Assembly (NCBI RefSeq): GCF_002795805.1
Contig: NZ_CP018799.1
Location: 675,001-739,000 of the forward strand
Origin: Mariprofundus aestuarium
GTDB lineage: Bacteria; Pseudomonadota; Zetaproteobacteria; Mariprofundales; Mariprofundaceae
Direction of reading: 5' to 3'
Length of the DNA: 64,000 bases
Positions within the stretch are counted from its first letter, which is position 1. Each line of letters starts with the position of its first letter. The notes beneath the pieces are model-generated. The model saw nothing but the letters and a program-made list of their open reading frames with translations, did not search any database and was not told the origin of the DNA. Made by a program: the position numbers and the translations under genes. Below, piece after piece: positions 5,348 to 33,291 of the stretch.

Positions 5348-5499
5348 GCTATGTTTCCTCCTTGTTGGTGTGGAAACATAATTATGAGCCATGGCCACTA
5401 GTGGACGTTGAAAATTACACACTTATAGTGACATTTGAATTGGAGGAGCCTAAAGATTGGGGGATCTCCCTCACATCAACGAAAGGTGGCTGAATAAAC

Positions 5500-6790: not shown

Positions 6791-8626
6791 TCATGCTTGA
6801 TCCATTTTTAGATATTGAGAGAACACCTCTTTAAGTTTTTGTTTGGCATAGTTGCAAATGCGGCCAGTGTACTCTTTAAGGGTGACGAATATGTGCTTAC
6901 CATTCTGACCATGAGGCTTTTGGGACATGTTTTGAAACCCGGCAAGATGGAGGAGAGTACCAACATTCAGGTCGACATGCTCTTCATTAAGCATGCGAGA
7001 AAAAGCTTGTGACTTTTGAGCAGATAACCCTTCATCGGTAATCTTTAATACACCCTGCAGTGAGTTGGAATAAGCTTCGGATACAACCGCGAAAGTATAT
7101 CCATCACGTTCCATCGCTCTCTTAGTTTCTGCTGTCATATTATCAATAATGACATAGTCGTGCATCCGGCTATGTGCCGTAACAAACACATTATAGCCAT
7201 TTTTATGGTTTTTTACATTCAGCATGCGTACAACCTTGGGGTCCAAAAGCTCATCGTTAGAATAGCTGCATTCTCCTTCATCTATGCAATCACCTGACTT
7301 GCCTGCTGAACCTTCTTTGGTGAGCGTTACGTGGTACTCATCCGCATCTAAAGCAATAAGCTGCCTCTCTATTTCCTGGCTAATCGCATGCTCATGATGG
7401 GATAAACGTATGCCATTTTTAGCCTGCTCTCTAACAGCCCCTTCCAAGTCAGTCTTTGCAGCGGAATCCCCTGCATCAGCATAAAACTGTCGAATGGTAT
7501 CCTGAGCTTCTTCACTGCTGAAAATATCGTTTAGATATACAATAGCATCATTGTATTGCATGTTTTCCGTGTCCATCAAGAAGTCGATAGCGTTTCGGTG
7601 TTTTTTTGGGTTGATCACACCTGTGTAGTTGCATGACTGGGCAACACGCTCAACTGGTATTTTGCGCAGTGTGCCGATCTGTTCTTTTGAAAGCAGGTCT
7701 TTCAGAAGTTTCACCTCGCTCTCAAGCACACGAATATTATCCCTTAGCTCTGAAATAACACGAGTAGCGGCTTTGGAGTTCTTCTCGTAAACCTTTCCCT
7801 TTTTTCCTTCGGCCTCTTTCTGCACCGCATAGGCAAGGGTGGATTTCACATATTGATGGGCCTTAGCAACTTCACGATCTGCCCATTGCTCGATTTCCTT
7901 TTTGCCAAGTATTCCTACATCAGGTTTTGGGTTTGGCCGAAAGGGCTTAGGCCGACCCGCTGCGGGGTCTACATCAGCAATCGCTCTCCATTCTGACGTT
8001 TTCTGATGAACAGCGAAGGCATTATAGGTGCCGCGCTCAAGACCGAGCGGGTTCATGGCTTCCGCATATTCAGACTGTAACCGTCCGGTTTTTGTGAGCT
8101 CTGAATTATTCTCTTTACGGGCTTTCGAAATGACCGCTGCCGTATCACCGAACACCTTATTGTAGGCAATGCGAGTAACCTTTTTCTCGCCATGTCTGAA
8201 TCTCTTGGTGTACGTTGCTTTGGCTGCAATCACTACATGAAGATGGGGTGCCTTTTCGTCTAGGTGGAGGTCGCAAGAAACAAGCGCATCGCCATACTTC
8301 TTACGCAACCACCTAACATTACGCTCAACCCACTCTCTGAGTCTTTTTTCTTGTTCTTTTTGGGTGCCTTGCTCGAACCATTCATGGTGAGCCGTGAGGA
8401 TCATCTCACAAGCAACATTTGTAGAGCGCTTGTCATTCATCCCATAACGGTCAATAACGGACTGCATGTCAGATTCAAGATCGCCAGTACCTGCGAATGA
8501 CCTGTTAAGATGCGAGCGATCTGCATCAACGTGTTTTTCTATAAACTCGCGTTTATTATGAGTCTGAACTTTCTTCAGGTCTTTCATTTTTAGCGGCTGA
8601 ATACGCATTGAGCATTGATATGCCAT
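6791..8626 (-). CDS. MobV/Mob_Pre-type relaxase with C-terminal RepB-like primase region
   Basis: A 611-residue protein. The N-terminal 230 residues match plasmid mobilization relaxases of the MobV (Mob_Pre) type: QTHNKREF, HLNRSF and the histidine triad region HLDEKAPHLHVVI (about 121-133). A helical linker follows (about 250-320). Residues about 425-530 (YHVTLTKEG, GYNVFVTA, DYVIIDNMT, AVVSEAYSNS, GVLKI) resemble the RepB-type archaeo-eukaryotic primase region of MobA-RepB fusions. Inferred: it nicks oriT and primes replacement synthesis during transfer. The ATG at 8626 is chosen for a GGAG eight bases upstream, against an alternative at 8668. No accessory mob genes are adjacent. Confidence 0.8.
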   Translation of the reverse strand: MAYQCSMRIQPLKMKDLKKVQTHNKREFIEKHVDADRSHLNRSFAGTGDLESDMQSVIDRYGMNDKRSTNVACEMILTAHHEWFEQGTQKEQEKRLREWVERNVRWLRKKYGDALVSCDLHLDEKAPHLHVVIAAKATYTKRFRHGEKKVTRIAYNKVFGDTAAVISKARKENNSELTKTGRLQSEYAEAMNPLGLERGTYNAFAVHQKTSEWRAIADVDPAAGRPKPFRPNPKPDVGILGKKEIEQWADREVAKAHQYVKSTLAYAVQKEAEGKKGKVYEKNSKAATRVISELRDNIRVLESEVKLLKDLLSKEQIGTLRKIPVERVAQSCNYTGVINPKKHRNAIDFLMDTENMQYNDAIVYLNDIFSSEEAQDTIRQFYADAGDSAAKTDLEGAVREQAKNGIRLSHHEHAISQEIERQLIALDADEYHVTLTKEGSAGKSGDCIDEGECSYSNDELLDPKVVRMLNVKNHKNGYNVFVTAHSRMHDYVIIDNMTAETKRAMERDGYTFAVVSEAYSNSLQGVLKITDEGLSAQKSQAFSRMLNEEHVDLNVGTLLHLAGFQNMSQKPHGQNGKHIFVTLKEYTGRICNYAKQKLKEVFSQYLKMDQA

Positions 8627-8667
8627 GATGCACTCCGGTACATATGCAACACCTGGAAGGTGTCTCA

Positions 8668-8935
8668 TGCACAGCTCAATATTTTATTATTTTGAGCTAG
8701 CGAGTGCGGCATTTATATCCGCTAAATCGAGTTCCAGTTTTTAGAATCATGGTCGGATTCAAAGGCCCCGCAGGGCGAACGGTAGTTTAAAAAAGCGTAG
8801 CGGTTGCGGAGCAATTTTTAAACTGCGATAGTGAGTGTATCATAGTTTAAAAATAAACATGATGCGTGTTTCACGGCAGGAATCCTACTTCGCCTGATCA
8901 ATAAAATCAATCTAACTTACTGATAAATAAGGAAG
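8668..8935. other. Candidate oriT upstream of the relaxase gene
   Basis: Transfer origins of MobV-type relaxases normally lie just upstream of the gene. Here an inverted repeat AGTTTAAAAA / TTTTTAAACT (8784-8793 and 8815-8824) encloses a 21-base GC-rich loop. A third copy of AGTTTAAAAA at 8844-8853 starts another small palindrome (8845-8858). No protein-coding frame is evident between 8668 and 8935. The nic position cannot be read from sequence. Confidence 0.4.
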
Positions 8936-10457: not shown

Positions 10458-13400
10458 ATGAAAATTATTGATAATGTAAACACGCTCTTTGGCGATGATC
10501 TTAAAGAATCCTTAAAGTCGGGTGGCAAACTGAAAGTTGCTGCTTCCTGTTTTTCAATTTATGCATATGAAGCATTAAAAACAGAGCTGGAAAAGCTTGA
10601 TGAGCTTCAGTTTATTTTCACATCGCCGACATTTGTTACGGGTGAAGCAACAGACAAGGTTCGTAAAGAGCATCGTGAATTCCACATCCCAAAACTTGAC
10701 CGTGAGCGCAGCCTTTATGGCAATGAATTCGAGATACAGCTTCGGAATAAGCTGACCCAAAGAGCGATTGCCAAAGAGTGTGCAGAGTGGTTGCGGCGTA
10801 AGGCCTGTTTCAGGTCTAATCGGTCTAAAGCACCTATGCAGCAATTTGCATGTGTTGATGGCAACCATGAAAGCGCTGCATACATGCCTCTGCATGGGTT
10901 TACTGCAGTTGATCTGGGTTATCAGCCGGGAAATGCAGTTTCCAATATCGTGAACAAGCTTGATGAGCAGAGCCATGCAGCCACCTATCTGGATTTGTTC
11001 GACCAAATCTGGAATGACACTTCCAAGGTTGAAGATGTGACCGAGCAGATTTGCGAGCATATAGCCTCGGTCTATCAGGAAAATTCACCGGAACGCATAT
11101 ACTTTCTGATGTTGTACAACATCTTTAGTGAATTTCTGGAAGATATTGATGAGGATGTTTTGCCGAACGATCGCACTGGCTACCAGGACACATTGGTGTG
11201 GCAGAAGCTTTTCAATTACCAGAAAGATGCTGCGACAGGTATTATCAATAAACTGGAAAAGTATAACGGCTGTATTCTGGCTGACAGCGTAGGCCTTGGA
11301 AAAACATTCACTGCACTGGCTGTCATCAAGTATTACGAACTTAGAAATAGGTCTGTACTGGTACTGTGTCCAAAGAAGCTTGCAGATAACTGGCTCAACT
11401 TTAACCGCAATCTGAGAACGAACCTTTTCATCAAAGATAGGTTTAACTATGAGGTCTTGTGCCATACTGACTTAAGCCGCACCAGCGGAGAGTCTTATGG
11501 TACCCCCTTAAACCGGATCAATTGGGGTAATTATGATCTGGTAGTCATTGATGAGTCGCATAACTTCCGCAACAACGATGCAGTCAAAGAGCGAGAGACT
11601 CGCTATCAGAAGTTGATGAATCAGGTCATACGCGATGGTGTTAAAACCAAGGTGCTGATGCTCTCTGCAACGCCGGTGAACAATCGCTTCAATGATCTTC
11701 GCAATCAGCTTGCTCTGGCCTATGAAGGTGAATCAGAAAACCTGACTAAGCATTTGCGTACAGGGAAATCAGTCGAAGAGATTTTCCGCAACGCACAAAA
11801 GGCTTTCAATTTCTGGTCCAAGCTACCTCCTGAAGAGCGTACAGCCAAAGCCATCCTGGATGCGCTCGACTTCGATTTCTTCGAGTTACTGGACAGCGTT
11901 ACGATTGCCCGCTCCCGCAAGCATATTCAGAATTTCTACGATACCAGTGAGATAGGTAAGTTTCCAGAGCGGCTCAAGCCCTTGTCGTTCCACTGTCAAC
12001 TGACAAACCGTCCAGATGTTATGGGATTTAATGAGATATTTGAGCAGCTTTCGATGTTAAAGCTCTCCGTCTATGCCCCTATTAGCTACATTCTGCCAAG
12101 CCGTTTGAGGAAATATGAGGAGATATACGATACACAGGTTGAAGGCGGCAAAGGTAAGCTGAGACAGGTGGACCGTGAGCGCAGCCTTCAGGCTCTGATG
12201 ACCACGAACCTGCTTAAACGTTTGGAGAGTTCGGTTCAATCATTCCGGCTAACCCTGCAGACTCTTCACAATAATCACACCAATACGTTGGCCAAAATCG
12301 CATCGTTCAAACAATCAGGGCTTCTGGAAGATGTGAGTGACTGGTCGGAACGTCTCGAAGCACTGGATGCTGAAGAGGATGACTTCACCGATATCGGCGA
12401 TGATGTCATTGGTGGCAAGGTAAAGATCAGTTTGGCTGATATGGATCTCCCCTCATGGGAATATGATCTCACCCTGGACCTGGAAATTATCGATGCATTA
12501 CTGGCTTCCATGAAGAAGGTCTCTCCAGAGGATGATACCAAGCTGCAACATATCAAGGCACAGATTTTTAGTAAGATCAGTAACCCTATCAATCCAGGAA
12601 ACAAAAAGGTGCTTGTCTTTACTGCCTTTGCAGATACGGCTGATTATCTTTATGCCAATCTGGCTCCTGAACTTCGGGACTCGCTGCAACTGCATTCAGC
12701 TAAGGTGACAGGCAAAGATGCTCCCAGGTCGACACTGAAAAAGGGCTATGACTTCCAGGAGCTGTTGACGCTCTTCTCGCCGCGTTCCAAAGAGAAGCAA
12801 GCTGTATTGCCTGATGAACCAGCAGAGCTTGATCTGTTGATTGGCACTGACTGTATCTCCGAAGGCCAAAACCTCCAGGATTGTGATTATCTGATCAATT
12901 ACGATATTCACTGGAATCCGGTTCGTATTATTCAACGCTTTGGACGAATTGATCGAATTGGTTCCATTAATGACAGCATCCAGCTTGTGAACTATTGGCC
13001 TGATATCTCGCTGGATGAATACATCAACCTTAAAGAGCGAGTGGAAAGCCGAATGGTGATTGCAGACGTGACTGCAACCGGTGACGATAATGTGCTGAGT
13101 GCGAAAGCTAATGATGTGGCCTACCGAAAAGAGCAACTTCGCAGGCTTCAGGAAGAGGTCATTGAGTTAGAGGATTTGAAGACAGGTGTATCCATCACTG
13201 ATCTTGGCTTGAATGATTTCCGCATGGACCTTCTCAATTATGTCAAAGTGAATGGTGAGCTGAATAACACCCCGAACGGTTTACATGCTGTTGTACAGGC
13301 CAAACCCGAAGTGGGCCTATTGCCAGGTGTGATTTTCACTCTGAGAAATCGTAATGAAGGCGTGAATGTCAACCAGCACAACCGGCTACATCCCTATTAT

Positions 13401-13730
13401 CTGGTGTACATTGGCCACGATGGCGAGGTCATCACAGACCATACAGATGTGAAGCGCCTGCTCGATCTGGTTCGGGCAAGTTGCAAGGGGCAAAGTGCTC
13501 CATTGCTTGAGATCTGTCACAGGTTTAATCAGGAGACTGGCGATGGCCGCAAGATGCAGGCTTATTCAGAACTGCTCAATGCATCGATCCGCTCCATGAT
13601 TGAGGTCAAAGAGGAGAAAGACCTGGATAGTCTGTTTACCACAGGTAAGACCACTGCGCTGGTAAATACTATTGCTGGCTTGAACGATTTTGAACTTATC
13701 ACCTTCCTGGTGATTCAGGATATGGTGTGA
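10458..13730 (+). CDS. SNF2-type helicase of the type III restriction operon
   Basis: A 1090-residue ATP-dependent DNA translocase. Residues 1-150 resemble a phospholipase-D-like N-terminal module (KLKVAASCFSIYAYEAL) but without a clear HxK motif, so probably inactive. The SNF2 core has Walker A SVGLGKTFTA (about 275-285), DESHNFRNN (about 365), LSATPVNNRF and the C-terminal helicase signature IGTDCISEGQNL...QRFGRIDRIGS. It is the first gene of a five-gene run ending at 21424; its stop overlaps the next start by 4 bp (GTGA). Known: such helicases with DUF4391 partners travel with type III Mod and Res. It may translocate or remodel DNA for the complex (inference). Confidence 0.85.
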   Translation: MKIIDNVNTLFGDDLKESLKSGGKLKVAASCFSIYAYEALKTELEKLDELQFIFTSPTFVTGEATDKVRKEHREFHIPKLDRERSLYGNEFEIQLRNKLTQRAIAKECAEWLRRKACFRSNRSKAPMQQFACVDGNHESAAYMPLHGFTAVDLGYQPGNAVSNIVNKLDEQSHAATYLDLFDQIWNDTSKVEDVTEQICEHIASVYQENSPERIYFLMLYNIFSEFLEDIDEDVLPNDRTGYQDTLVWQKLFNYQKDAATGIINKLEKYNGCILADSVGLGKTFTALAVIKYYELRNRSVLVLCPKKLADNWLNFNRNLRTNLFIKDRFNYEVLCHTDLSRTSGESYGTPLNRINWGNYDLVVIDESHNFRNNDAVKERETRYQKLMNQVIRDGVKTKVLMLSATPVNNRFNDLRNQLALAYEGESENLTKHLRTGKSVEEIFRNAQKAFNFWSKLPPEERTAKAILDALDFDFFELLDSVTIARSRKHIQNFYDTSEIGKFPERLKPLSFHCQLTNRPDVMGFNEIFEQLSMLKLSVYAPISYILPSRLRKYEEIYDTQVEGGKGKLRQVDRERSLQALMTTNLLKRLESSVQSFRLTLQTLHNNHTNTLAKIASFKQSGLLEDVSDWSERLEALDAEEDDFTDIGDDVIGGKVKISLADMDLPSWEYDLTLDLEIIDALLASMKKVSPEDDTKLQHIKAQIFSKISNPINPGNKKVLVFTAFADTADYLYANLAPELRDSLQLHSAKVTGKDAPRSTLKKGYDFQELLTLFSPRSKEKQAVLPDEPAELDLLIGTDCISEGQNLQDCDYLINYDIHWNPVRIIQRFGRIDRIGSINDSIQLVNYWPDISLDEYINLKERVESRMVIADVTATGDDNVLSAKANDVAYRKEQLRRLQEEVIELEDLKTGVSITDLGLNDFRMDLLNYVKVNGELNNTPNGLHAVVQAKPEVGLLPGVIFTLRNRNEGVNVNQHNRLHPYYLVYIGHDGEVITDHTDVKRLLDLVRASCKGQSAPLLEICHRFNQETGDGRKMQAYSELLNASIRSMIEVKEEKDLDSLFTTGKTTALVNTIAGLNDFELITFLVIQDMV

Positions 13731-14401
13731 GCGAAAACCTGTTTTCATGGCCTAAACAGGCGGCGTTTGGGCGGGTATTACCCAAAACCAAGATCTATGA
13801 ACACGTTAAGCCGACGCAGGCGGTAAAAGAACTGTTTGTACGACAGGTCGAACAGATTGTCTGGCAGTATAAGCTTGCACCTGAAACGATCCATCTTTCA
13901 GCCACTAAAAGTGTGCCAGAGATCCAAGTGTTTTCTATAAAGCAGAAGACAGACACCTTGAGCAATGAAGTTCTCCGATGCATTGATCAGGCAGTACAGT
14001 TCCCGATTATTTTTGAATTGAAGTATGAAGATAAAATCAGCATGAAGGCGTGCTATAAACGTCCGAATGAGGCGGATCGTAATAAGTGGGTGCGTAGTGA
14101 ATACTTCTCATCTGATTGGCTGAATACGGATTCTGATAGAGTGCCACTACCTATGTCACTGGACTTGGGTAGTCTTTACGGACATTTGTTGGAGGCATTG
14201 ATCCCTGTTGATGCCAGACAAGGGGAATCTCTTTCCACGTTTACCGCCAGAATTGAACGCATGCATGCCAAACAACGTGAAATGGATAAATTGGCTGGTC
14301 GCCTTGCCAATGAAAAGCAGTTTAATCGAAAAGTGGAGATCAATGCCCAGTTGAGGGGATTAAGAAGTGAATTGGAAGAGTTAAAGGCTCACGAGGCTTA
14401 G
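13727..14401 (+). CDS. DUF4391 domain protein
   Basis: A 224-residue protein with a GTG start overlapping the helicase stop by 4 bp, implying translational coupling. It fits DUF4391: N-terminal FSWPKQAAFGRVLPKTKIYEH, a central IKQKTDTLSNEVLRCIDQ and FELKYEDKISMKACYKRP, then SDWLNTD. The last 70 residues are a charged probable coiled coil (ARIERMHAKQREMDKLAGRL onward). The family's biochemical role is unknown. Its strict pairing with the preceding helicase suggests an adaptor subunit. Confidence 0.8.
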   Translation: MSENLFSWPKQAAFGRVLPKTKIYEHVKPTQAVKELFVRQVEQIVWQYKLAPETIHLSATKSVPEIQVFSIKQKTDTLSNEVLRCIDQAVQFPIIFELKYEDKISMKACYKRPNEADRNKWVRSEYFSSDWLNTDSDRVPLPMSLDLGSLYGHLLEALIPVDARQGESLSTFTARIERMHAKQREMDKLAGRLANEKQFNRKVEINAQLRGLRSELEELKAHEA

Positions 14402-14411
14402 GGGAGTACAC

Positions 14412-16232
14412 ATGGAGATAAAAGCCGATGTTCACAGTATATCAAAGCTGAAGGACTACTTTTTTTTGGTTCCTGACTATCAAAGGGAGTACGTCTGGAA
14501 AGTGGATGATCAAGTTGAACAGTTCTTGGTCGATATCGATAATGAATATGAAGAGGGCCAGATTGAGCAAAAGAGTTACTTCATCGGCTCTATCATTATT
14601 GTTGAGAACAAAGGTCGTTTTGATGTAATTGATGGCCAGCAGCGACTTACCACGATTGTTCTTACCCTATGTGCATTCCGGGACTTGTTCGCCACTCTGG
14701 AGCTGGATAAAAAACAGCAGAGCTATTTCAAAACAATCAATGAGTGGCTTTCTGATTTTGATATTGAAACCGATGAGACACAGATTCGGCTCGACCTTCA
14801 GTATCAAGAGAGCAAGGACTTCCTGAGTAAATTAATCCTTTCTTCGCCCTACACAGACGAACAGACCTCCTCTATTAAACGGATGCAGGAGGCGTATGAA
14901 ACAATAAAAGAGCACATGCAAGGTTATCTGGATGTTGGAACTGATAATTTCACTTCGTTTGTCCGGTATTTTCTTTCAAAGATCGAGTTGGTTGTAATTA
15001 AATCTGAGAATCTCAGTAGTGCTTTGAAGATATTCGAGACGATTAACCAGCGTGGGGCCGGTTTGAATGCCATGGATTTGGTAAAGAATCTAATATTCAG
15101 CCAGTCCAAGGAAAATGACTTCCAAAAGATTAAGGAAAAATGGAAGAACATTGGCGCTAATCTGGCTGCTTGCGGAGAAGATCAGAATCAACTCCGTTTC
15201 CTTCGTTATTTTATTATGGCCCGTTATTACAACGGCATTATGCGTGAGGATGAGATTTACAAGTGGATCATCTCAACAGAGGGCAAGAAGGCAATAGCTT
15301 ATGAAGCCAATCCGCTTGGGTTCGCTACAGAGCTTGAAAAGCTATCCAAGCGTTACAGTACGCTAGTTAATGCAACGATGTACCAGAAGGATGGAGGTGA
15401 CTATCCGGCTGTAACTCGAATTGGCTTTATCAACAAATATAAGTCGCGGCAGCATCTGGTTTTACTGCTTGCCCTAAGAATCGATTGCTCCAAAGAGATG
15501 ATCGAATTTTTAGCCAAGCAACTGGAGAGTCTCTTCTTTTATAGCTCGACACTTGGCATTCAGGCTAAGAACAATGAGCGCCTGTTTACCGACTGGGCGG
15601 TGAAACTACGCACCGCTTCTTCTGAGCTTGAACTATCTCTGGTTGTGAACGTCACAATCCTGCCATACCTCCGAAAGTTGATAGGAGAGTTTAAACAGAC
15701 GTTCCTTACTCTGCGGCACTACCATTACAATCCTCTCTATAGGCAACGCTATGTGCTTGGCCAAATTGAGAACACACTGCGGCGAAAGGCTAACCTACCG
15801 GAACAGGGGCTAGAGTTTTTTAATAGCCTACAGATTGAGCATATACTTCCACAAACTCCAAAAGATGGGGTTATTCCAGAAGGCTTTGTGGATCAGGAAG
15901 AGTACGAGTCCACGTTGTACATGCTTGGAAATGTCACCCTTCTTGAAGGCACGATCAACCAGGCCATCAATAAATTCAATGATATGACACAAGGCTGGTT
16001 TGCCCAGAAACAAGGTGAATATACCAAGTCCAATGTTTTAACCACCGCCTTACTCAATCATGAATTCAGCATTGGTAAGAATACTCAGCTCAATAAATTC
16101 AAAGAAGAGTACCAATATCAATTCTCGGAATGGACTAAAGAACAGGTGTCCATGAGACAACGGTTTCTACTAAAACTTGTATTCGAAACATGGTTAATTA
16201 ACGGAATGCGTATTGATGAGCAACAAGATTGA
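14412..16232 (+). CDS. GmrSD-like DUF262/DUF1524 protein inside the type III operon
   Basis: A 606-residue protein. The N-terminal DUF262 (ParB/Srx-like) part has VPDYQREYVW (about 21-30), FIGSIIIVE and FDVIDGQQRLTTI (about 70-82), the nucleotide-binding/hydrolysis signature of GmrS. The C-terminal DUF1524 part has IEHILPQTP (about 474-482) and MLGNVTLLE, matching the His-Me (HNH-like) nuclease of GmrD. Known: GmrSD enzymes are type IV restriction nucleases that cut glucosylated hydroxymethylcytosine DNA. Start is 10 bp after the DUF4391 stop and follows GGGGAG. Its location between helicase and Mod suggests it backs up the type III system against modified phages (inference). Confidence 0.85.
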   Translation: MEIKADVHSISKLKDYFFLVPDYQREYVWKVDDQVEQFLVDIDNEYEEGQIEQKSYFIGSIIIVENKGRFDVIDGQQRLTTIVLTLCAFRDLFATLELDKKQQSYFKTINEWLSDFDIETDETQIRLDLQYQESKDFLSKLILSSPYTDEQTSSIKRMQEAYETIKEHMQGYLDVGTDNFTSFVRYFLSKIELVVIKSENLSSALKIFETINQRGAGLNAMDLVKNLIFSQSKENDFQKIKEKWKNIGANLAACGEDQNQLRFLRYFIMARYYNGIMREDEIYKWIISTEGKKAIAYEANPLGFATELEKLSKRYSTLVNATMYQKDGGDYPAVTRIGFINKYKSRQHLVLLLALRIDCSKEMIEFLAKQLESLFFYSSTLGIQAKNNERLFTDWAVKLRTASSELELSLVVNVTILPYLRKLIGEFKQTFLTLRHYHYNPLYRQRYVLGQIENTLRRKANLPEQGLEFFNSLQIEHILPQTPKDGVIPEGFVDQEEYESTLYMLGNVTLLEGTINQAINKFNDMTQGWFAQKQGEYTKSNVLTTALLNHEFSIGKNTQLNKFKEEYQYQFSEWTKEQVSMRQRFLLKLVFETWLINGMRIDEQQD

Positions 16233-16254
16233 AGTTAATAAAAGGAACTATGAA

Positions 16255-18306
16255 ATGGAAAAAATGAAAATGCATTCGCCGGATATGACCCAGGACAATA
16301 TCGACCGCATCCGTGACCTTTTCCCCGGCTGTGTGACTGAGGCACGGGATGAATCTGGTCAGGTGAAGCTGGCGGTAGATTTCGATCAGTTGAAGCAGGA
16401 ACTTTCTGATTCCATCGTGGAAGGTCCACAAGAGCGCTATCACCTCAACTGGCCAGGTAAACGGGAGGCCCTGCTTACTGCCAATGCCCCAATCGCTAAA
16501 ACACTTCGTCCATGTCCAGAAGAAAGTGTCGACTTTGATTCTACCAAAAACCTTTTCATTGAAGGTGACAACCTGGATGCATTGAAACTCTTGCAGGAGG
16601 CCTACCTTAGTCAGGTCAAAATGATCTACATTGATCCACCTTACAACACAGGCAATGACTTTATCTATGATGATGACTTTGCTGAAAATACTGAAGGGTT
16701 TTTGAAACGATCCAATCAAAAAGATGAAGAAGGAAATCGTCTTGTAGCAAACAAGGAGTCAAATGGTCGATTTCACTCAGATTGGATGAGCATGATGTAT
16801 TCTCGATTGAAATTGGCGCGGAATTGTCTTCGTGAGGATGGAGTCATTTTCATTAGCATTGATGATGCAGAGTTTGCTAATCTTAAAGAACTTTGTGGAG
16901 AAGTGTTTGGCGAGAATAACTTTATTGCCTCTTTAATTTGGGAAAAGGGGAGGAAGAATGATGCCAAGTTAGTATCAGTTGGGCATGAGTACATACTAGT
17001 GTTTGCCAAAAATAAAGCCTTCTTTCAGGAACGAAAAATCAAATGGAGAGAAGCAAAGGCGGGTGCGAAAGAAATTCTAGATGAGTATCTAAAGCTCAGA
17101 AAAGATTTTGGCAGCGATAATGAAGCTGTTGAAAAGGGGATCCGAGATTTTTATGCGAGTTTGCCAAAGAAACATCCTTCAAAGAAGCACTCGCGATATA
17201 ATAAGGTTGACGATAAGGGCGTATGGCGAGATGACAATATGTCATGGCCTGGTGGTGATGGGCCAACATATGATGTTATACATCCTGAAACTAATGTCCC
17301 TTGTACAGTTCCAGAGGGAGGATGGCGTTACAGTACTATCGAAAAAATGAATGAGATGATTCGGCTCGGAAAAGTTGTGTTCCGAAAGGACCACATTGAA
17401 CCACCAATTCGAAAAACATATCTCGTTGAGGTAGATGAGGGGCAAGAGTGCTCAGGTATGGACGAAGAAGAGTCTGATGATTTGCCAATTCAAGTGGCTG
17501 GCTCCTACTTTTACAGAAGTGCATTGCAGGCTAGTAATGAATTAAATCAGTTGTTTGGAGCGAAAGTTTTTAACAACCCTAAAGATAAAGAAGTTCTTGC
17601 CAGGTGGATTGAGTACATTGGTACTTCAGATGGTGACATTGTAATGGACTTTTTTGCAGGTTCCGGCACCACCGGGCATGCGGTGTTAGAATTAAATGCC
17701 AAAGAAAACAAGGCTATTCGTTATGTGTTGGTACAATTACCTGAGGTAATAAACCCAAAGGCGAAGGGTGCAAAGTCTGCAGTGGCATTTCTAGAAAAAT
17801 TAAATCGCTCTTGCGTTGTTTCCGAGCTGACTAAAGAGCGCCTTCGTCGTGCTGGAAAGAAAATTCTAGAGGGTGAATATCACGATGCTTGGAATAAGGA
17901 TGTTGGTTTTCGTGTGCTCAAAATCGACTCATCTAATATGGCCGATGTGTATTATACCCCGGACGTCATTGCGCAGGGTGATCTCTTGACCAGAGTTGAT
18001 AACATCAAGCATGGTCGGACACCCGAGGATTTGCTATTCCAGGTATTGTTGGATTGGGGTGTGGATTTGTCATTGCCCATTCGCAGGGAAACCATCCAGG
18101 GGAAATCAGTGTTCTTTGTTGATGAGAATGCTTTGATTGCGTGTTTCGATCAAGGGGTCAGCGAAGAGCTGGTGAAAGATCTGGCCAAGTACAAACCCCT
18201 GCGTGTTGTCTTCCGGGACAATGGCTTTGCCTCGGATGCCGTCAAAATCAACGTCGAGCAAATCTTCCGGCAGATGTCTCCGGGCACCGAAGTGAAGGCG
18301 ATTTGA
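16255..18306 (+). CDS. mod: Type III restriction-modification DNA methyltransferase (Mod)
   Basis: A 683-residue beta-class N6-adenine methyltransferase. The catalytic motif IV DPPYN is at about 128 ([13 protein letters not shown]) and the SAM-binding motif I is downstream at about 465 ([13 protein letters not shown]), the beta order expected for Mod. The variable target-recognition domain lies between them (about 240-430). ATG 16255 is preferred because AAGGA lies a few bases upstream; the frame also has an ATG at 16216 that overlaps the previous gene. Known: Mod confers sequence specificity and pairs with Res. Mid-gene base composition is AT-richer than the ends, consistent with an exchanged recognition domain. 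Confidence 0.9.
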
Positions 18307-18316
18307 GGTCCATGGC

Positions 18317-21300
18317 GTGAAACTCAAATTCAAAGTTCAGCCATACCAGACCAATGCCGTTGAAGCCGTCGTCGATTGCTTTGCCGGTCAGGTCAATACA
18401 TCCGGCATCCAGTATCGGATCGATCCGGGGGCGATGAAACAGTCGAGCATGTACGAGGAGGTCGGGTTCAAGAATGCCGGCATCCAGCTAACTGACGAGC
18501 AATTACTAAAGAACGTTTATAATGTTCAGCATCGGCAGAACCTCCCCATATCGAATTCTCTCGATGACTTCTATATCAAAGACAGGCAAGGCAATAACCA
18601 ACCAGCACCACCAGCGTATAAAAAATCAGCGCGAGATATATGCCGAGTTCATCTTGATGTGGAGATGGAGACAGGGACCGGCAAGACCTATTGCTATATC
18701 AAAACCATCTTCGAGATGAACAAGCTCTATGGTTGGAGCAAGTTCATCATTGTAGTGCCAAGCATTGCCATTCGCGAAGGCATTTATAAGTCGCTAGAAA
18801 TCACAGCCGAGCACTTCACCGAGAGCTACGGCAAGAAGGCCCGCTTCTTTATCTATAATTCTCGACAGCTTCATCATCTTGAAAGCTTCTCTTCTGATGC
18901 TGGCATCAACGTCATGGTGATTAATATTCAGGCGTTTAATGCAACGGGCAAAGACAATCGCCGCATTTATGATGAGTTGGATGATTTTCAATCTCGTAGA
19001 CCAATAGATGTTATCAGCAGCAATCGTCCCATCCTTATCCTTGATGAGCCGCAAAAGATGGAGGGGGCCAGGACATTAGGTGCACTGGCAAAATTCAATC
19101 CATTGATGATTCTACGCTATTCGGCAACCCATAAGACTACGCACAATAAGATTCATCGTCTTGATGCATTGGATGCTTATAACCAGAAACTGGTGAAAAA
19201 AATCGGTGTTCGCGGCATTTCTGTAAAGGGGCTTGCCGGCACCAATCCTTACCTCTATTTGGAATCCATTGAGGTTTCAAAAAAGGCTCCAATTGCTCGT
19301 ATAGAATTTGAGATAAAACTTAAATCCGGGAAAATTCAAAGGAAACTCATGCGCCTTGAAAAGGGCAAGAATCTGTTCGATGCATCTGGAGAGCTGGACC
19401 AATACCGTGACTTTGTGATTTCACAGATCGATGCTAATAGTGATACGGTTGAATTCACTAATGGGCATTGCCTTGCCGCTGGTGAAGCGACCGGAGACGT
19501 CACTGAAGAGACGATAAGGCGGATTCAAATTCGCGAGACCATCAAGGCACATTTTGAGAAAGAGCAGAAGCTCTTTGCCCAGGGGATCAAGGTACTATCC
19601 CTCTTCTTTATCGATGAAGTGGTTAAATACCGCGACTACAGCCAGGCAGATGAACAAGGCCATTATGCACGCATATTTGAAGAGGAATACGAGCAACTGA
19701 AGTCGGACTACCTCAGCGAACTGGCACTGGATAATGAAGACTATCGGAGTTATCTGGCGGGCATTGACGTTGGCCGGACTCATAACGGTTATTTCTCAAT
19801 CGATAAGAAGAACAAGATGGTTGATCCAGCAGTGAAGAAAAGAGGTGAGGATGCTGGCCTTACGGATGATGTCGATGCCTATGACTTGATTCTGAAAGAT
19901 AAGGAGCGGCTATTGTCATTTGCAGAGCCGGTTCGCTTTATCTTCTCCCATTCAGCTCTCAGGGAAGGTTGGGATAATCCCAATGTTTTCGTAATGTGTA
20001 TGCTTAAACACAGTGATAACACTATTTCCAGAAGACAGGAGGTAGGTCGTGGACTGCGTTTGTCTGTGAATCAACACGGAGACCGCATGGATCATCCGGC
20101 AACGGTACACGACATTAATGTACTTACCGTGGTTGCCAGCGAAAGCTATAAGGACTTTGTAGCCAGCCTGCAGCGTGAGATCAGCGATACACTTTCATCC
20201 AGACCCCGGAAAGCTGATGAAGAATATTTTATCGGCAAGACAATCACTACAGAAGCTGGCCCAATGGAAGTAACGCAGATCATGGCCAGGCAGATATATA
20301 AATATCTGCTCAAAAACGATTATACCGATGATGCTGATCGGGTTGCGGATATTTACCATGAAGCTAAAACTGAAGGCACTCTCGCTGCACTACCTCCTGA
20401 GCTTGCTCCTTATGCAGAACAGATTTTTGGACTCATTGATAGTGTGTTCAGTGAATCGCAGCTTCCGGACGTGGGTGATGACCGCAAGCCAAAGACAAAT
20501 CCACTGAATGACAACTTCGACAAGAAAGAGTTCCAGGAGTTATGGAAGCGAATCAATCGCAAGGCTGTTTATCAAGTTGATTTCGATTCTGATGAGTTGG
20601 TTCAAAAATGTGTCAGCACACTGGATTCAGAGCTACGGGTAACTCCGTTACAATATACAATCCAGTCGGGTATTCAGAGCGACCAGGTTACCGATTCACA
20701 ACTTAAACGTGGAGAGGGTTTCACTCTCAAGAACACAGAACAGGCAAAGGAGACAACTTCCGTTCATTCAATGGTCAAATATGATCTGTTAGGCAAGCTG
20801 GCAGAAAACACTCAGCTTACCCGCAAGACCATTGCCGATATCTTGTCGACAGTTCAGCCAGCAATATTTTCACAGTTCAAAATGAACCCTGAACACTTCA
20901 TTACTGAAGCTTCGAGGTTGATCAATGAACAAAAAGCGACAGTCATTGTTGAGCGGCTGACTTATAATGAAACAGCCGATCAATACGACACCGACATCTT
21001 CACGGTCGGTCAGAGCAAACAGGATTTCACCAATGCAGGCTCTCCACTCAAACGTCATATTTACGACTATGTGATTACAGACTCGAAAGTTGAACGTGAA
21101 TTTGTATCAGAGCTGGACACCAGCGCCGAAGTGGTTGTCTATGCCAAGCTACCCAGTGGCTTCCTGATTCCTACCCCTGTTGGTGATTACAACCCCGATT
21201 GGGCTATCTCCTTTAAAGAAGGAAGCGTCAGACACATCTACTTCGTAGCAGAAACCAAGGGGTCTATGTCTACGATGCAACTGCGTGGTGTAGAAGAGAA

Positions 21301-21424
21301 GAAAATCGAATGTGCCCGTAAGTTTTTCGACAAATTAAACTGCCAGGTTGCAGCCGACCAGGTGAAGTATGATGTGGTGACCGACTACGGGAAGTTGATG
21401 GATATAGTTGGAGCATCCAATTGA
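18317..21424 (+). CDS. res: Type III restriction endonuclease subunit (Res)
   Basis: A 1035-residue DEAD-like helicase and nuclease. Walker A is [11 protein letters not shown] (about 115-125), motif II is [11 protein letters not shown] (about 240), motif III is RYSATHK, and [14 protein letters not shown] with [12 protein letters not shown] gives motifs V and VI. The C-terminal PD-(D/E)XK nuclease has NPDWAI (about 960) and AETKG (about 979). GTG start, 10 bp after the mod stop. Full length for the family with all motifs intact, so cleavage competence is expected. Res acts only in complex with Mod. Confidence 0.93.
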
Positions 21425-21476: not shown

Positions 21477-22064
21477 ATGCCACATAATCAAGTAATAGAA
21501 AAATTTGAGCTTTATATTGTATCTCTTTGGCTACTCTTTCTTCTTATTGTGGTTGTTACGGTTGATATTCCAATTTGCTTTGGCGATGGATGTACCTTTA
21601 TAGGCTTTGGCGAACTGTTAAATAGAAATGTAGTGCCAGCAGTTGCAATAATTTTCATCGTTTTTGGTATGATCTATTTCTTGCGGTTTAATTATAAGAT
21701 CGCTGGAAGCAAGTCGAACCCGGTTACCATTGAATCAGTTGAAGACATGAATTATGAGCACCTTACATTCCTAACAACATATATTATCCCTTTAATATGC
21801 TTTAATTTAACAAGCACCAGGTATTTAATCGCCCTCGGAGTTCTCCTGTTTGTTATTGGAATAATTTATGTCAAAACAGATAAGTTTTATGCAAATCCAA
21901 CCTTGGCCATATTGGGGTTTCGTCTCTACTCTGCTGTGGTAACGAAGCGTACCGGAGAGAAGGTAAAAGTTGTTCTGATTACGAAAAGCCATCTCCAGGA
22001 TGGTAAATATATTCAGTATTTAGAGTTGGATAGTAGAGTTTATTTTGCCAAGGAGAGATCATGA
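21477..22064 (+). CDS. kwaA: KwaA, membrane component of the Kiwa anti-phage system
   Basis: A 195-residue protein with four probable membrane segments (around residues 12-32, 51-70, 94-112 and 117-134) and a soluble C-terminal tail. The length, the four-helix topology and the 4-bp overlap with a DUF4868 gene match Kiwa. Known: KwaA is the membrane subunit thought to sense phage attack and KwaB the DNA-binding effector. It lies 52 bp after res, on the same strand, so the pair could be co-transcribed with the restriction operon or use its own start in the gap. Assignment rests on topology plus partner rather than on invariant residues. Confidence 0.82.
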   Translation: MPHNQVIEKFELYIVSLWLLFLLIVVVTVDIPICFGDGCTFIGFGELLNRNVVPAVAIIFIVFGMIYFLRFNYKIAGSKSNPVTIESVEDMNYEHLTFLTTYIIPLICFNLTSTRYLIALGVLLFVIGIIYVKTDKFYANPTLAILGFRLYSAVVTKRTGEKVKVVLITKSHLQDGKYIQYLELDSRVYFAKERS

Positions 22065-23032
22065 GTTTAGACAAGTTGCGATCTACAATATCTGGAGTCA
22101 TTGAAGACAAAAAGTGCGATGCTGAATTCTTTTTTCTATTAGATTCTAATGGTGAAATAAGTATTAAGCGCGTTGATATGGATGAAGGTGCACATGAAGA
22201 GCTGACACAAAAATTCATCGCATCAATTGGCGAGGCCATTCTTCTTAATGATGAGATTTCACTTCTGGACATATCGGGTGCCGATGATCGCTCAAATGCA
22301 ATTTATAAATATGATCTTCCAGAACTGCCTTTCCAACTTTCAAACTTAGAAACAGTTCTACAGTCAGATGATTTTCCTTCTTTTGATTTTAGTTCAGATG
22401 ATCTTAAGCATCTTGAAGGAATATTGATTATTCTAGGCCATGGTCAAACTCAGATGGCTATATATAAACATCAATATCCTGTGGCTTTATTGAAGAGAGA
22501 TGGGGGGTACTTCCACAGAGGAAGTCGATTGGTTCAACTCGATGAAGAAGTTCTCCGAATTAATTCAAAATTTGAGTTTATGCACATAGATGATGATTAC
22601 TATATTGTTGACCTGAAAACTTTAGAGAGATTTTTTGGATTTCATGAAGCAATTAAAAATGTTGCTACTCAAGGTCTAACCAATATTCAAAACTCTGAAT
22701 TGGTGGTTGATATAAGTCCTCTTGAGGGCCGTATTGATGATATATCTTTTGCAAGAAAGCTAGTGCGGGTTGCAAGAGCATCACCAGTACTCGGGGTTAT
22801 ACCGAATGAAGAAATTATTACTTTTGTAAGCACATATCCCGCTCTTCGTGGGAAGTTCAAGGTAAATGATGATGGCACTAAGCTTAGATTGGAAACTAAA
22901 GTATCTCAGAATCTATTTCTAAAGCTCCTGAATGATGACTTTCTCCAGTCCGAATTGACAAAACGTCATTATGACAGCTTGGCTAAAGACTCTTTGGAAG
23001 CGGTTGAAAATGAATCAACTACTGAGTCATGA
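22061..23032 (+). CDS. kwaB: KwaB, DUF4868 effector of the Kiwa anti-phage system
   Basis: A 323-residue soluble protein. The DUF4868-like features are the central YKYDLPELPF, the beta-rich QMAIYKHQYPVALLKR, FEFMHIDDDYYIVDLKTLERFFGFHE and the final winged-helix-like part with KFKVNDDGTKLRLETK. Its ATG overlaps the kwaA stop (ATGA), so the two are translationally coupled. Known: KwaB binds DNA, and Kiwa blocks late phage replication and transcription, including as a response to RecBCD inhibition. No catalytic motif is evident, as expected for the family. Confidence 0.82.
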   Translation: MSLDKLRSTISGVIEDKKCDAEFFFLLDSNGEISIKRVDMDEGAHEELTQKFIASIGEAILLNDEISLLDISGADDRSNAIYKYDLPELPFQLSNLETVLQSDDFPSFDFSSDDLKHLEGILIILGHGQTQMAIYKHQYPVALLKRDGGYFHRGSRLVQLDEEVLRINSKFEFMHIDDDYYIVDLKTLERFFGFHEAIKNVATQGLTNIQNSELVVDISPLEGRIDDISFARKLVRVARASPVLGVIPNEEIITFVSTYPALRGKFKVNDDGTKLRLETKVSQNLFLKLLNDDFLQSELTKRHYDSLAKDSLEAVENESTTES

Positions 23033-23199
23033 GAAGGTCGAATATTTATAACGTAAATATCATCTATGTTGTTGAGATATTAAATCGGGCACAAATGAAA
23101 ATCGGAAAGTTTTCGACACGCTTTATACGAAGCAAAAATCAATGAAGTGCTTTGAAGATAAGAAGCCTCAACTGCTCAAGAGTTGCGGAGCAAGTTGAT

Positions 23200-24045
23200 A
23201 TGTTTGGGTGGATTGAGAAGCTACTGAAAATCCCTGCTGCTGCCTCCTCTTCAAAGGAAGCAATACAAAGCGAAATAAATAAAGAACCAGTTCGCCGTTT
23301 TGTGCAGCTCTTCGAAGCTCATGGTGTTGCTCGAACCCAAATTCCACGCTTTCTGAAAAACCATGGAGTTGAAATATCATATGAAGACATCAATACAGAC
23401 TCATCATTACTCAAGCGTCTTGATGAAGAGATGTTGGAGAAGTCATGTGAAATATTCGGAGTACGCCGAGAATGGTTAGATGGCGTAGATGATAGGATTT
23501 ACCCCAGAGTAGGATTCTACAAAAATCTATCAGAATTTACTGAGTTGATGAGTCAACTACAAACGCAATCTGATGATATTGACCTCATTGCAATCAAGAG
23601 CCCAAAGAATAAGCTAGATAAGAACTCAGACAGCTTTAATAGCCCAATCGCCTTAGTCATTAAAATTGAAATTGGCTGGCTGGGAGACACACCAATATAC
23701 CGATACATACCATGTGATGATGAATGGAACTGGGGATATTGTAAAGCACGTTTTGAGCTGAAAGGGTTGGCTCTATTTGCATGGCAGTTCCGTAACGTGG
23801 TGTTTGGTTGTCATATGCCTCAGAACACCATCAATAACATAATTCATGGCGTTACATTTCCTGGTCCAGAAATTGAAGCAGCAGGGCATAAGGGGCATTT
23901 CAGGCTCGATTATATGATCTTCACAGAGGATGAGAGCTGTGCCGCAGATGATCCGGAAGAGGCTCTCAAGGTAAGAGAATATCTTTCTGATACTGGGGAC
24001 ATAAAGAATTATGAATCTAAATACAAACCAATGTTTTTTAGCTAA
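23200..24045 (+). CDS. Conserved protein of unknown function, possibly HTH-like at its N-terminus
   Basis: A 282-residue protein counted from the ATG at 23200, preferred for a GGAG ten bases upstream over an earlier start at 23152. Residues about 28-100 are helical with a regular pattern (RRFVQLFEAHGVARTQIPRF, ISYEDINTDSSLLKRLDEEM, EIFGVRREWLDGVDD) resembling a phage-repressor-like domain. The C-terminal 150 residues hold aromatic strands (WLGDTPIYRYIPCDDEWNWG) and no motif I know. It lies 167 bp after kwaB and its stop is only seven bases before the first of two operator-like palindromes. It could regulate the next genes or be a sensor; unproven. Confidence 0.6.
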   Translation: MFGWIEKLLKIPAAASSSKEAIQSEINKEPVRRFVQLFEAHGVARTQIPRFLKNHGVEISYEDINTDSSLLKRLDEEMLEKSCEIFGVRREWLDGVDDRIYPRVGFYKNLSEFTELMSQLQTQSDDIDLIAIKSPKNKLDKNSDSFNSPIALVIKIEIGWLGDTPIYRYIPCDDEWNWGYCKARFELKGLALFAWQFRNVVFGCHMPQNTINNIIHGVTFPGPEIEAAGHKGHFRLDYMIFTEDESCAADDPEEALKVREYLSDTGDIKNYESKYKPMFFS

Positions 24046-24051
24046 AAGATA

Positions 24052-24143
24052 TTTTTTGTTGCAAATACGCAACAAAAAAAGTCATGAGGATCTCTAATAA
24101 TCAAAGCCCACGTAGGAATTGTTGCATATACACAACAATTCCT
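24052..24143. promoter_or_regulatory. Two near-identical palindromic operators upstream of the AAA+ gene
   Basis: Two 20-bp sites, TTGTTGCAAATACGCAACAA (24056-24075) and TTGTTGCATATACACAACAA (24119-24138), differ at two positions and are 63 bp apart. Site 1 is extended by A/T tracts to 11-bp arms (24052-24062 / 24069-24079). Site 2 is extended to a different 11-bp arm (24114-24124 / 24133-24143). They flank the region just before a strong promoter at 24163. The symmetry and spacing fit binding by a dimeric repressor, with possible looping. Confidence 0.6.
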
Positions 24144-24162
24144 CAGAAAAATCAACTACTTA

Positions 24163-24190
24163 TTGACAAATCGATAAGATTTGATATACT
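24163..24190 (+). promoter_or_regulatory. Promoter of the AAA+/phosphoesterase pair
   Basis: TTGACA (24163-24168), 16-bp spacer, TATACT (24185-24190). It drives a leader of about 175 nt before the start at 24368. The leader contains the hairpin TCAGGC-TGTT-GCCTGA and a GCGC-rich stem, and ends with AAGGAG seven bases before the ATG. The strong consensus beside two operators indicates a tightly repressed, inducible unit (inference). Confidence 0.6.
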
Positions 24191-24367
24191 ACTAAAGCTA
24201 TCTGCAGAGCCATTCCTTTAAAAATCAGGCTTCTGTTACCGAGGTGGCAAACTCCATGATAAAGAAAATGTAATTCCAGTCAGGCTGTTGCCTGATCAAA
24301 ACCATTTTGCTGTTTTTCCGCTGCGCTTATGCGCGGCATAGATGTCTATTGCCTATAAGGAGAATGA

Positions 24368-25567
24368 ATGGACGAGAATTTAGACCTTTGTGCAGAACAA
24401 CGATCAGAACACTTGATGTCTGATCATCCTCAAAATGTTCCTACAGTTGATCAGAAAGACGATAGCATCTTTGGTTGCGACCCATTCGGGCCAGTGACTG
24501 AAGATCAAATGGAGCGCATGAAAAAACGTTTCCAGGAAGCAAAGGATTTGCGCATGGCTGCCGCTGAAGAAGCGTCGGCTTATTCGCTAGAAATGTATGA
24601 TAATGCTGAAGTGGTGCAGAGACTAACGAGTGTTGAACGGCAGAAGGACATGGAGCATTTACGCTCTATTTTACGAAAAATGCAGATTACTAAGTCTCGC
24701 CGCGAACTAACGCCGCAGCCTCGAAATTACGATGATCTAATGAACCGTCTATCTAAGCGTTACCCACATTTTGGTGATGTTATCGAGCTTCTTCGCGCAA
24801 GAATGAGAATGAATGCTTTGAAAAAGCATCCTACTGTAGATTTCGGGGGAAATCTTTTACTACTGGGTGCTCCGGGGTGTGGAAAAAGCTCCTTCTTATG
24901 TGATCTCGGAGAAGCATTAGGTACAAAATTCTCAGTCGTTTCCTGTGCTGCAGCTTCAACATCAGCGGAATTAACAGGGTTGTCATCTTGTTGGGGCAAC
25001 GGCCACCCAGGCATTGTACATGAGCTTCTTGTTCAGCAGGGATGCGCCAATCCCATCTTTCTTCTCGACGAGGTAGAAAAATCTCAATCTGAGGGTCAGC
25101 AGCCGTTTATGCATGCTCTATACGGATTACTCGAAAAAAGTTTCGCTCGAAATTTCAAGGATGAATTTGTAAACGTGACTATCAACGCAAGTAAAATTAA
25201 CTGGTTTGCGAGTGCAAATGACGTCAATTCATTAGATCCACCTATCCGCGATAGGTTCGAAGTGATTCATGTTAATGTACCTAGCCGTAGTGACTTAGAG
25301 TTGATCGTTCCTCAAATATACAAGCGACAGGTAGATGATCATGGGCTACAGCATATCTATGCGCCTAGCTTGTCGGATGACATCTTATCCTTGTTGCTGA
25401 AAATGAAGATTTCCTCAATTCGCCGAATCAAAGTGTTGATCGAGCGAGCATTGGCCAATGCCGCAATTCGTGCAAATCAAGATGGTGATTTGGTCCACTT
25501 GGTATGTGAAGACTTTCCAGATATGCGGTCTGAGCAAGAGAGTCTGCCCAGAATTGGTTTTATTTAG
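24368..25567 (+). CDS. AAA+ ATPase, Lon-like ATPase core without protease domain
   Basis: A 399-residue ATPase. The N-terminal 120 residues are acidic and helical. The AAA+ core has Walker A GAPGCGKSSFL (about 168-177), Walker B IFLLDEVEKS (about 230-239) and a sensor/arginine-finger stretch FASANDVNSLDPPIRDRF, the pattern of the Lon ATPase module. A small helical lid follows (SDDILSLLLKMK, IRRIKVLIERALANAA). There is no Lon Ser-Lys protease domain, so the motor probably serves a separate partner. The metallophosphoesterase gene starts 3 bp after its stop, suggesting that partner. Ribosome site AAGGAG is well placed. Function unproven. Confidence 0.75.
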   Translation: MDENLDLCAEQRSEHLMSDHPQNVPTVDQKDDSIFGCDPFGPVTEDQMERMKKRFQEAKDLRMAAAEEASAYSLEMYDNAEVVQRLTSVERQKDMEHLRSILRKMQITKSRRELTPQPRNYDDLMNRLSKRYPHFGDVIELLRARMRMNALKKHPTVDFGGNLLLLGAPGCGKSSFLCDLGEALGTKFSVVSCAAASTSAELTGLSSCWGNGHPGIVHELLVQQGCANPIFLLDEVEKSQSEGQQPFMHALYGLLEKSFARNFKDEFVNVTINASKINWFASANDVNSLDPPIRDRFEVIHVNVPSRSDLELIVPQIYKRQVDDHGLQHIYAPSLSDDILSLLLKMKISSIRRIKVLIERALANAAIRANQDGDLVHLVCEDFPDMRSEQESLPRIGFI

Positions 25568-25569
25568 TC

Positions 25570-26310
25570 ATGAAGGTACAAGTATTGTCTGACCTTCATC
25601 TTGAGTGTGCGCCCTTTGAGCCAAGGCTCACTGATGCTGATGTCATTATCCTTGCTGGAGATGTCGGGGATGGGTGTGCTGGCATTTTGTGGGCGCAGAA
25701 GGTGTTCTCAGTCCACGTAATTTATGTGTGCGGTAATCACGAATTTCATAATTCCGACTATTCTATGAAAGAACACATCGCTGAAATGAAAAATATTGCT
25801 GATGGTTCAAACGTACATCTGTTGGATAATGACTCTATTGTCATCAGCGGAGTGCGATTTCTTGGATCAACGATGTGGACAGATCTCAGGCATTTCGGCT
25901 CAGTACTTCATTGCGACTACGACCAGATTATTATGTCTCATGAGCCAGGATGCATCCCCAGCCATTTTAGCGTGGGTCACCAGCAGGCTCTGTTCGATAC
26001 AAATAGAGAATGGTTAGCTAATGAATTGAGTCAGATTCACATAGGCAATACGGTGGTTATTTCACATCATGCACCCAGCCAGAAAAGTATTCACCCCAGA
26101 TACGTCGGCCATCCTTGGAATTCCTGTTTTGTGACGAATTTAGAGGATTTAATGGATAATAGCGTTGATTTATGGATACACGGGCATACACATAGCAATT
26201 GCGATTATATGATTAACAATACCCGAGTAGTTTGCAATCCAAGAGGATACCCAATGGAGGTTGGTTGGGAGAATGCCGATTTTGATCCTGAATGCTTGGT
26301 TCGGCTCTAA
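25570..26310 (+). CDS. Calcineurin-like metallophosphoesterase paired with the AAA+ ATPase
   Basis: A 246-residue enzyme with all five metallophosphoesterase motifs: SDLHLE (residues 7-12), AGDVGDG (about 34-40), GNHEFH (about 57-62), ISHHAPS (about 163-169) and HGHTHS (about 214-219). It should bind two metal ions and hydrolyse phosphodiesters or phosphomonoesters; the substrate cannot be read from the motifs. It starts 3 bp after the ATPase gene with no ribosome site of its own, implying translational coupling. In this context a nucleotide-signal or nucleic-acid phosphodiesterase controlled by the ATPase is the simplest reading (inference). Confidence 0.8.
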   Translation: MKVQVLSDLHLECAPFEPRLTDADVIILAGDVGDGCAGILWAQKVFSVHVIYVCGNHEFHNSDYSMKEHIAEMKNIADGSNVHLLDNDSIVISGVRFLGSTMWTDLRHFGSVLHCDYDQIIMSHEPGCIPSHFSVGHQQALFDTNREWLANELSQIHIGNTVVISHHAPSQKSIHPRYVGHPWNSCFVTNLEDLMDNSVDLWIHGHTHSNCDYMINNTRVVCNPRGYPMEVGWENADFDPECLVRL

Positions 26311-27033: not shown

Positions 27034-27074
27034 AAGCCTGTAAATCACTTGTTTTTACAAGGACTTACAGGCTT
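27034..27074 (-). terminator. Rho-independent terminator of tRNA-fMet copy 1
   Basis: A 10-bp stem AAGCCTGTAA / TTACAGGCTT (27034-27043 / 27065-27074) with an inner CTTGT/ACAAG extension. On the minus strand it is followed by TTTTCTTTT, and it begins six bases after the tRNA 3' end. Confidence 0.8.
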
Positions 27075-27079
27075 ATGTT

Positions 27080-27154
<75 letters not shown>

Positions 27155-27167
27155 TTAAGGAGGCCGA

Positions 27168-27195
27168 ACCATAGGGCGGACTGTCGTGGTGTCAA
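27168..27195 (-). promoter_or_regulatory. Promoter of tRNA-fMet copy 1
   Basis: On the minus strand: TTGACA (27190-27195), 16-bp spacer, TATGGT (27168-27173), then GGCCTCCTTAA before the tRNA. The same arrangement and spacing precede copy 2, so both copies look expressible. Confidence 0.7.
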
Positions 27196-27518
27196 CAAAT
27201 AATCCGGCAAAGGCATGATTTATTTGAATAAACTCAAATGCAATATAAAGGGATCATTTTTTCATGCCATGCAGGTAGATGCATGCTGAATGCAGGCTAG
27301 TGCAGCTCAGAACAGATGAAGTGTCCCAAAATTGTCCCATTTTTGTCCCATCGACCGGTTGAGCCGACAGCCAACTCCGGTCATTCAGGGGGGGTACAGC
27401 AACAGCTTTTTGACGACTTTAGTGATAGTCTATGCTTCAATGCATATGGGGAGTTATTTATGCTATCAAATAGATTCCCATGCTCATTAATAAATAAGGT
27501 CACTTTTTGGGATAAAAT

Positions 27519-33060: not shown

Positions 33061-33067
33061 GTATGTT

Positions 33068-33142
<75 letters not shown>

Positions 33143-33155
33143 TTAAGGAGGCCGA

Positions 33156-33183
33156 ACTATAGGGTTGGCTTTCATCGTGTCAA
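33156..33183 (-). promoter_or_regulatory. Promoter of tRNA-fMet copy 2
   Basis: Minus strand: TTGACA (33178-33183), 16-bp spacer, TATAGT (33156-33161), then the same GGCCTCCTTAA box as copy 1. The -10 is one base better than that of copy 1. Confidence 0.75.
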
Positions 33184-33291
33184 CCGCCTTTGTTCATGTC
33201 GGGTGTGTGGTTGACCGGCAGAGCGGGTGGTCTAAAATCGGGTCGCACTACAAGGGCTGCATTAATAATCGTTTGCCAAGGATGACACGCC

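Follow-up and report, generated by a model that had tools for sequence, protein, structure and literature searches.

The stretch of DNA analysed here (the window) comprises 64,000 nucleotides, positions 675001-739000 of contig C1 in the 2.54-Mb genome of Mariprofundus aestuarium (G000), a member of the iron-oxidising class Zetaproteobacteria, and contains two adjoining genes on the plus strand. The first (24368-25567) encodes a protease-less, Lon-type AAA+ ATPase of 399 aa, hereafter AAA, and the second (25570-26310) a calcineurin-like metallophosphoesterase (MPE) of 246 aa. Between the stop codon of AAA and the start codon of MPE lie 2 nt (TAG-tc-ATG), not the 3 bp of the original prediction. 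That prediction had also described a two-gene operon, and indeed the genes share a strand and follow each other, AAA then MPE, behind a single promoter. The pair matches no described system in PADLOC or NCBIfam system models or in the literature found; its novelty is limited to these sources, as preprints and subscription papers lay outside the search.

AAA matches the Pfam families AAA_5 (1e-10) and AAA (3e-9). Among curated families, the Lon ATPase module (TIGR00763) comes closest, aligned over residues 160-373 at 5.6e-24, far below the model's whole-protein cut-off. The top PDB matches are Lon modules as well (2e-38 by profile), and the predicted fold also returns Lon. The protein carries Walker A (GAPGCGKS), Walker B (LLDE), and Arg finger (RDRF) motifs, and in an alignment to the genome's own Lon its pore-loop aromatic, W209, pairs with the Lon pore-loop tyrosine. 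AAA shares with the ATPase module of LonA protease its AAA+ core and fold, the Arg finger, and the position of the pore loop. LonA differs by its Ser-Lys protease and N domain: family searches found no Ser-Lys protease domain in AAA, nor was the Lon N domain found. The chain ends after the small AAA domain, at residue 399, in a C-terminal tail (RIGFI) that is disordered in the predicted monomer structure. An [IMLV]GF motif lies at most 5 residues from the end in 78/80 AAA homologues. To dock ClpP, ClpX uses an IGF loop internal to its chain; in several ATPase rings, C-terminal tails serve to dock partners. The conserved C-terminal [IM]GF of AAA may be an IGF-type docking motif facing a protease ring, as in ClpP-docking unfoldases. 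A search of viral contigs for AAA yielded only two distant matches.

The second protein is a calcineurin-like phosphoesterase, as had been predicted. It scores above the cut-off for PF00149 (4e-9), matches phrog_1649 at 1e-47, and keeps the dimetal-site motifs intact as SDLH, GD, GNHE, SHHAP, and HGHTH (DxH, GD, GNHE, H, and GHxH in the superfamily). These motifs are invariant in nine relatives, and the core residues are invariant in a further alignment. The structure model is confident (mean pLDDT 94). Its closest solved structure, by both profile (1.3e-8) and fold (TM-score 0.59-0.69), is PptH (6unc), yet the two share 17-18% identity and the substrate of PptH is not transferable to MPE. Structures of Rv0805, MPPED2, Mre11, and Dbr1 come next among the structural neighbors. 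Of 399 Pseudomonadota genomes, 53 contain the MPE family, for the most part as a solo chromosomal gene, and it also occurs in phages, many of them large. Since the family is this common, mostly solo, and shared with phages, MPE may be a general phosphatase that was recruited for convenience. Two side observations concern its neighbors: in Brevundimonas phage Kikimora a gene of this family (L170, 5001-5765) sits amid a large tRNA gene cluster, and HipA-type kinase genes adjoin the phosphoesterase at three loci (L067, L068, and L269).

Upstream of the operon stand two exact palindromes. The distal one (24052-24079) has the core TTGTTGCAAATACGCAACAA (24056-24075) and the proximal one (24114-24143) the core TTGTTGCATATACACAACAA (24119-24138); each possesses perfect 11-bp arms, and relative to the predicted start their centers fall at about -131 and -68, respectively. 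A terminator-like prediction on the minus strand coincides with the distal palindrome. The 2.54-Mb genome contains the motif TTGTTG-N8-CAACAA at four places and no more (reversed control, 0), two of them before each of its two AAA-MPE operons. At both operons the palindromes are spaced by an identical 63 bp, close to six helical turns, with the same centers. Whereas this spacing is conserved, the intervening sequence is not: only 11 of the 43 positions between the palindromes agree between the two operons, which is random-like. Three of the four palindromes have perfect arms of 11-12 bp, with outer bases that vary yet stay complementary. An operator shared across genomes did not emerge, as the search of the whole genome and of the other loci found the palindrome solely before this genome's two pairs. 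At other loci, an imperfect palindrome (CAYTATTG-S-CAATARTG) was noticed by eye near AAA promoters, twice in G030 (L066, 7250-7530; one overlaps the -10) and once in G058 (L067), and is a candidate for a different operator in these two genomes.

The promoter itself (24163-24190, plus strand) is of the sigma70 type, TTGACA-16-TATACT, with 11/12 consensus positions and a TG extended -10. The strong promoter and the long leader before AAA at 24368 were thus read correctly from the start, and the promoter layout is the same at the paralogous operon and in the G003:C4 copy. Tight repression, which the original prediction had derived from the palindromes, is not accepted because both palindromes are clear of the promoter and touch neither the -35 nor the -10. 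Their place upstream of the -35 suits activation or looping no less well than repression. A site-specific DNA-binding protein would control the operon via these two phased palindromes. The 297-aa product of the ORF directly before the pair (23152-24045, plus strand, family unassigned) was considered as binder of the operator shared by both copies and found unlikely, since the second copy has the operator and the genome contains no paralogue of this protein.

Within the leader (24241-24273, plus strand), a strong Shine-Dalgarno sequence, GAGGTGG, precedes the 5-codon mini-ORF ATGATAAAGAAAATGTAA (24256-24273), which reads MIKKM. This arrangement is common to the leaders of three AAA-MPE loci, with MKTHN and MQIKN as the peptides of the other two (L010 and L065), and translational attenuation by the mini-ORF is a possible consequence. 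The leader folds somewhat better than shuffled sequences (z -2.6) and has no match in Rfam at E <= 1. Elsewhere in the Zetaproteobacteria, at the search sensitivity used, the promoter-leader region was returned only for this genome's two operons.

The surroundings of the pair form a defence island, in agreement with the first description. Kiwa (KwaA and KwaB, 21477-23032) and a DUF262/GmrSD gene (HEC-06-like) with the Mod and Res genes of a type III restriction-modification (R-M) system (14412-21424) adjoin it, all on the plus strand. Just before the type III R-M genes, positions 10458-16232 encode an HKD+Snf2 helicase (PADLOC C3a139, 1e-127), a DUF4391 protein, and DUF262/GmrSD proteins; together with the type III R-M genes they may constitute one larger defence operon. 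A Mob_Pre relaxase gene that includes a RepB primase-like region (6791-8668) and ORFs resembling tyrosine recombinases (near 17-898 and 4709-5422) mark the island as mobile in origin. Beyond the pair, a 123-nt direct repeat (94%; 27074-27196 and 33062-33184) containing two tRNA-Met genes flanks a 6-kb segment with UmuC-like and histidine kinase genes, for which duplication or insertion is possible. Location in a defence island is context and no proof of defence.

How constant the pairing is can be read from 78 Zetaproteobacteria genomes. With E < 1e-100 as the threshold for close loci, AAA is found at eight loci in six genomes, with named relatives in Mariprofundus and Ghiorsea, and MPE accompanies it at 8/8, directly at six and with one gene between at two (cpYpsA in G022 and a second MPE in G108). 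The second pair of the window's genome lies on the other strand (1122331-1124336) and is 55% (AAA) and 58% (MPE) identical to the first. A 3929-aa open frame around AAA in G003:C3 was rejected as an artefact of a run of N. The co-occurrence that had been called for is therefore there, but the exclusive pairing that the original prediction implied stands only in part: it applies to all eight close AAA loci, whereas MPE is often solo and so are the AAA homologues of Burkholderiales. Even within the class, MPE is missing next to two more distant copies of AAA found in G001 (5e-77, about 29% identity), and five genomes have MPE without AAA, one of these at a contig end. Next to the solo MPE of G001 are genes for a WD40-repeat protein and for a protein that matches SLATT/SLOG weakly.

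Five of the eight loci lie with defence genes, two in mobilizable elements, and one at a contig edge. Type I methyltransferase genes are near the pair in G003:C3; type I methyltransferase and specificity genes in G030; MkoC (6e-292, Mokosh-like), AbiEii (AbiE), HsdS-like, and HipA genes in G058; and an SspH-like ATPase with an integrase in G108. The contig-edge copy, in G022, adjoins HipA-like and XRE-like genes. The remaining two show that the pair is carried by mobile elements: the second copy of the window's genome has a large serine recombinase on one side and a MobA/MobL relaxase on the other, and the G003:C4 element consists of a recombinase, AAA, MPE, a NIF-type HAD, and a related relaxase. 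The latter element (L065, 5935-17190), of the large serine recombinase kind, splits a histidine kinase gene at its H-box (HDFNN).

Outside the class, the best 80 AAA relatives in genome contigs with DNA available, mostly from Burkholderiales, have no MPE near AAA in 77 cases. These solo proteins (about 335 aa) resemble AAA in sequence (about 30% identity) and in the C-terminal [IM]GF tail, present at 78/80 loci, but they mostly lack a nearby MPE, often stand next to a membrane-protein gene, and are apparently chromosomal. Because solo AAAs carry the tail too, it is not MPE-specific. The Burkholderiales family (L085-L161) is large, ends in RIGF[VLM]Q, and is apparently uncharacterised. A Sphaerotilus plasmid carries AAA-MPE-MPE, with a second MPE akin to that of the Ghiorsea locus. 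On several Rhizobiales plasmids, members of the same MPE family follow a different protease-lineage AAA+, either with a 4-nt overlap or after one to three genes (one plasmid of this survey was read from ORFs alone). Unlike the Lon-type AAA, this ATPase resembles FtsH and IetA and has retained an M41 protease whose HExxH is intact. Some of these operons lie in defence settings, as a CBASS cyclase adjoins once and a DNA methyltransferase is nearby once.

We tentatively read AAA-MPE as a mobile two-gene cassette for conflict or stress, in which an AAA+ motor is joined to a phosphodiesterase effector, and we give this reading a real chance of being right. The genes would be transcribed together from their one promoter and AAA would assemble into a hexamer. 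Upon an infection or stress cue, this hexamer would engage a target protein and thread or remodel it, or gate its partner, and MPE would act as the chemical effector by hydrolysing a phosphodiester bond in a nucleotide signal, an RNA or DNA end, or a phospho-modified protein. The likeliest role would be to shield the host or the mobile element from phages or competing elements. This defence role is one that we infer from gene content and neighborhood.

The main rival, which we hold to be possible but rather unlikely, is a cassette for RNA or nucleotide repair. Here, MPE would work with associated HAD phosphatases, a second MPE, or cpYpsA to clean up after an attack by dealing with RNA ends that were damaged or nucleotides that are toxic, while AAA would remodel a damaged ribonucleoprotein or a stalled protein. 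Near pairs or solo MPEs, a NIF-type HAD is indeed found by both G003 copies and in G041, a HAD_SAK_2 ("Swiss Army Knife RNA repair") protein in G108, and cpYpsA in G022. Second MPEs occur in G108, Sphaerotilus, Acidiphilium, and Shinella, and one phage has its MPE within a tRNA cluster. Calcineurin-like enzymes have, moreover, been discussed in phage RNA-repair neighborhoods (PMC9503650, PMC7824862). However, none of the pair loci read was seen to carry an RNA ligase or kinase, the copy in the window has neither a HAD nor a second MPE, and the PDB neighbors of MPE are diverse.

The pair might instead serve the integrative elements themselves as a module for maintenance, competition, or addiction rather than host defence, which we deem unlikely. 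It is the main cargo of the two compact recombinase-plus-relaxase elements, and other AAA-MPE pairs are on plasmids. On the other hand, a MobA/MobL relaxase is beside only two of the eight copies, and in profile searches no known toxin or antitoxin resembled either protein. A conjugation or mobilization module in the strict sense is rejected, because most copies lack a neighboring relaxase and the linkage is not constant; in the window, the Mob_Pre gene is 16 kb off.

Control of protein modification, in which the AAA+ unfoldase would present a protein and MPE would strip it of phosphopantetheine or another group attached by a phosphodiester, is very unlikely. It draws on PptH, a phosphopantetheinyl hydrolase, being the nearest solved structure, but the resemblance is as low as described above, and a cyclic-nucleotide phosphodiesterase and RNA-acting enzymes follow close behind. 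That two ordinary genes were put together by chance in mobile DNA is likewise very unlikely: AAA and MPE are each found solo elsewhere and their distances are uncorrelated over the eight loci (Mantel r -0.01, P 0.47, with little power at eight loci), yet adjacency holds at all eight diverged copies, with short gaps, a single promoter, and parallel operons of FtsH-type AAA and MPE. The uncorrelated distances imply that the partners may have been reassembled or shuffled rather than strictly co-inherited.

Returning to the conflict or stress cassette, its nearest analogues are IetAS and other systems that combine an AAA ATPase with an effector enzyme in a two-gene layout. In IetAS the partner is a subtilase (IetS) instead of an MPE, and AAA matches IetA weakly and partially (2e-5 over 52 residues in PADLOC, 0.058 in NCBIfam). 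SbcCD and Mre11-Rad50 likewise couple a calcineurin-like enzyme to an ATPase, but one of the ABC/SMC type and not AAA+. A bolder version, to which we assign a low probability, is that motors from protease lineages, of the Lon type here and of the FtsH type in Rhizobiales, were combined time and again with a single phosphodiesterase family into an undescribed mobile immune class. In the Lon-type members the IGF tail would dock a partner ring, e.g., ClpP, in place of the lost protease, thus bringing unfolding and phosphodiester cleavage together.

Should the pair prove to be a defence system, the AAA-plus-effector systems known so far would be joined by one that couples a phosphodiesterase effector to an AAA+ motor derived from proteolysis. 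There would then also be a role to test for the phrog_1649 phosphoesterases, a widespread family that is still uncharacterised. Lon relatives with an IGF tail and no protease, for their part, make up a sizeable and apparently uncharacterised family that extends to Burkholderiales too.
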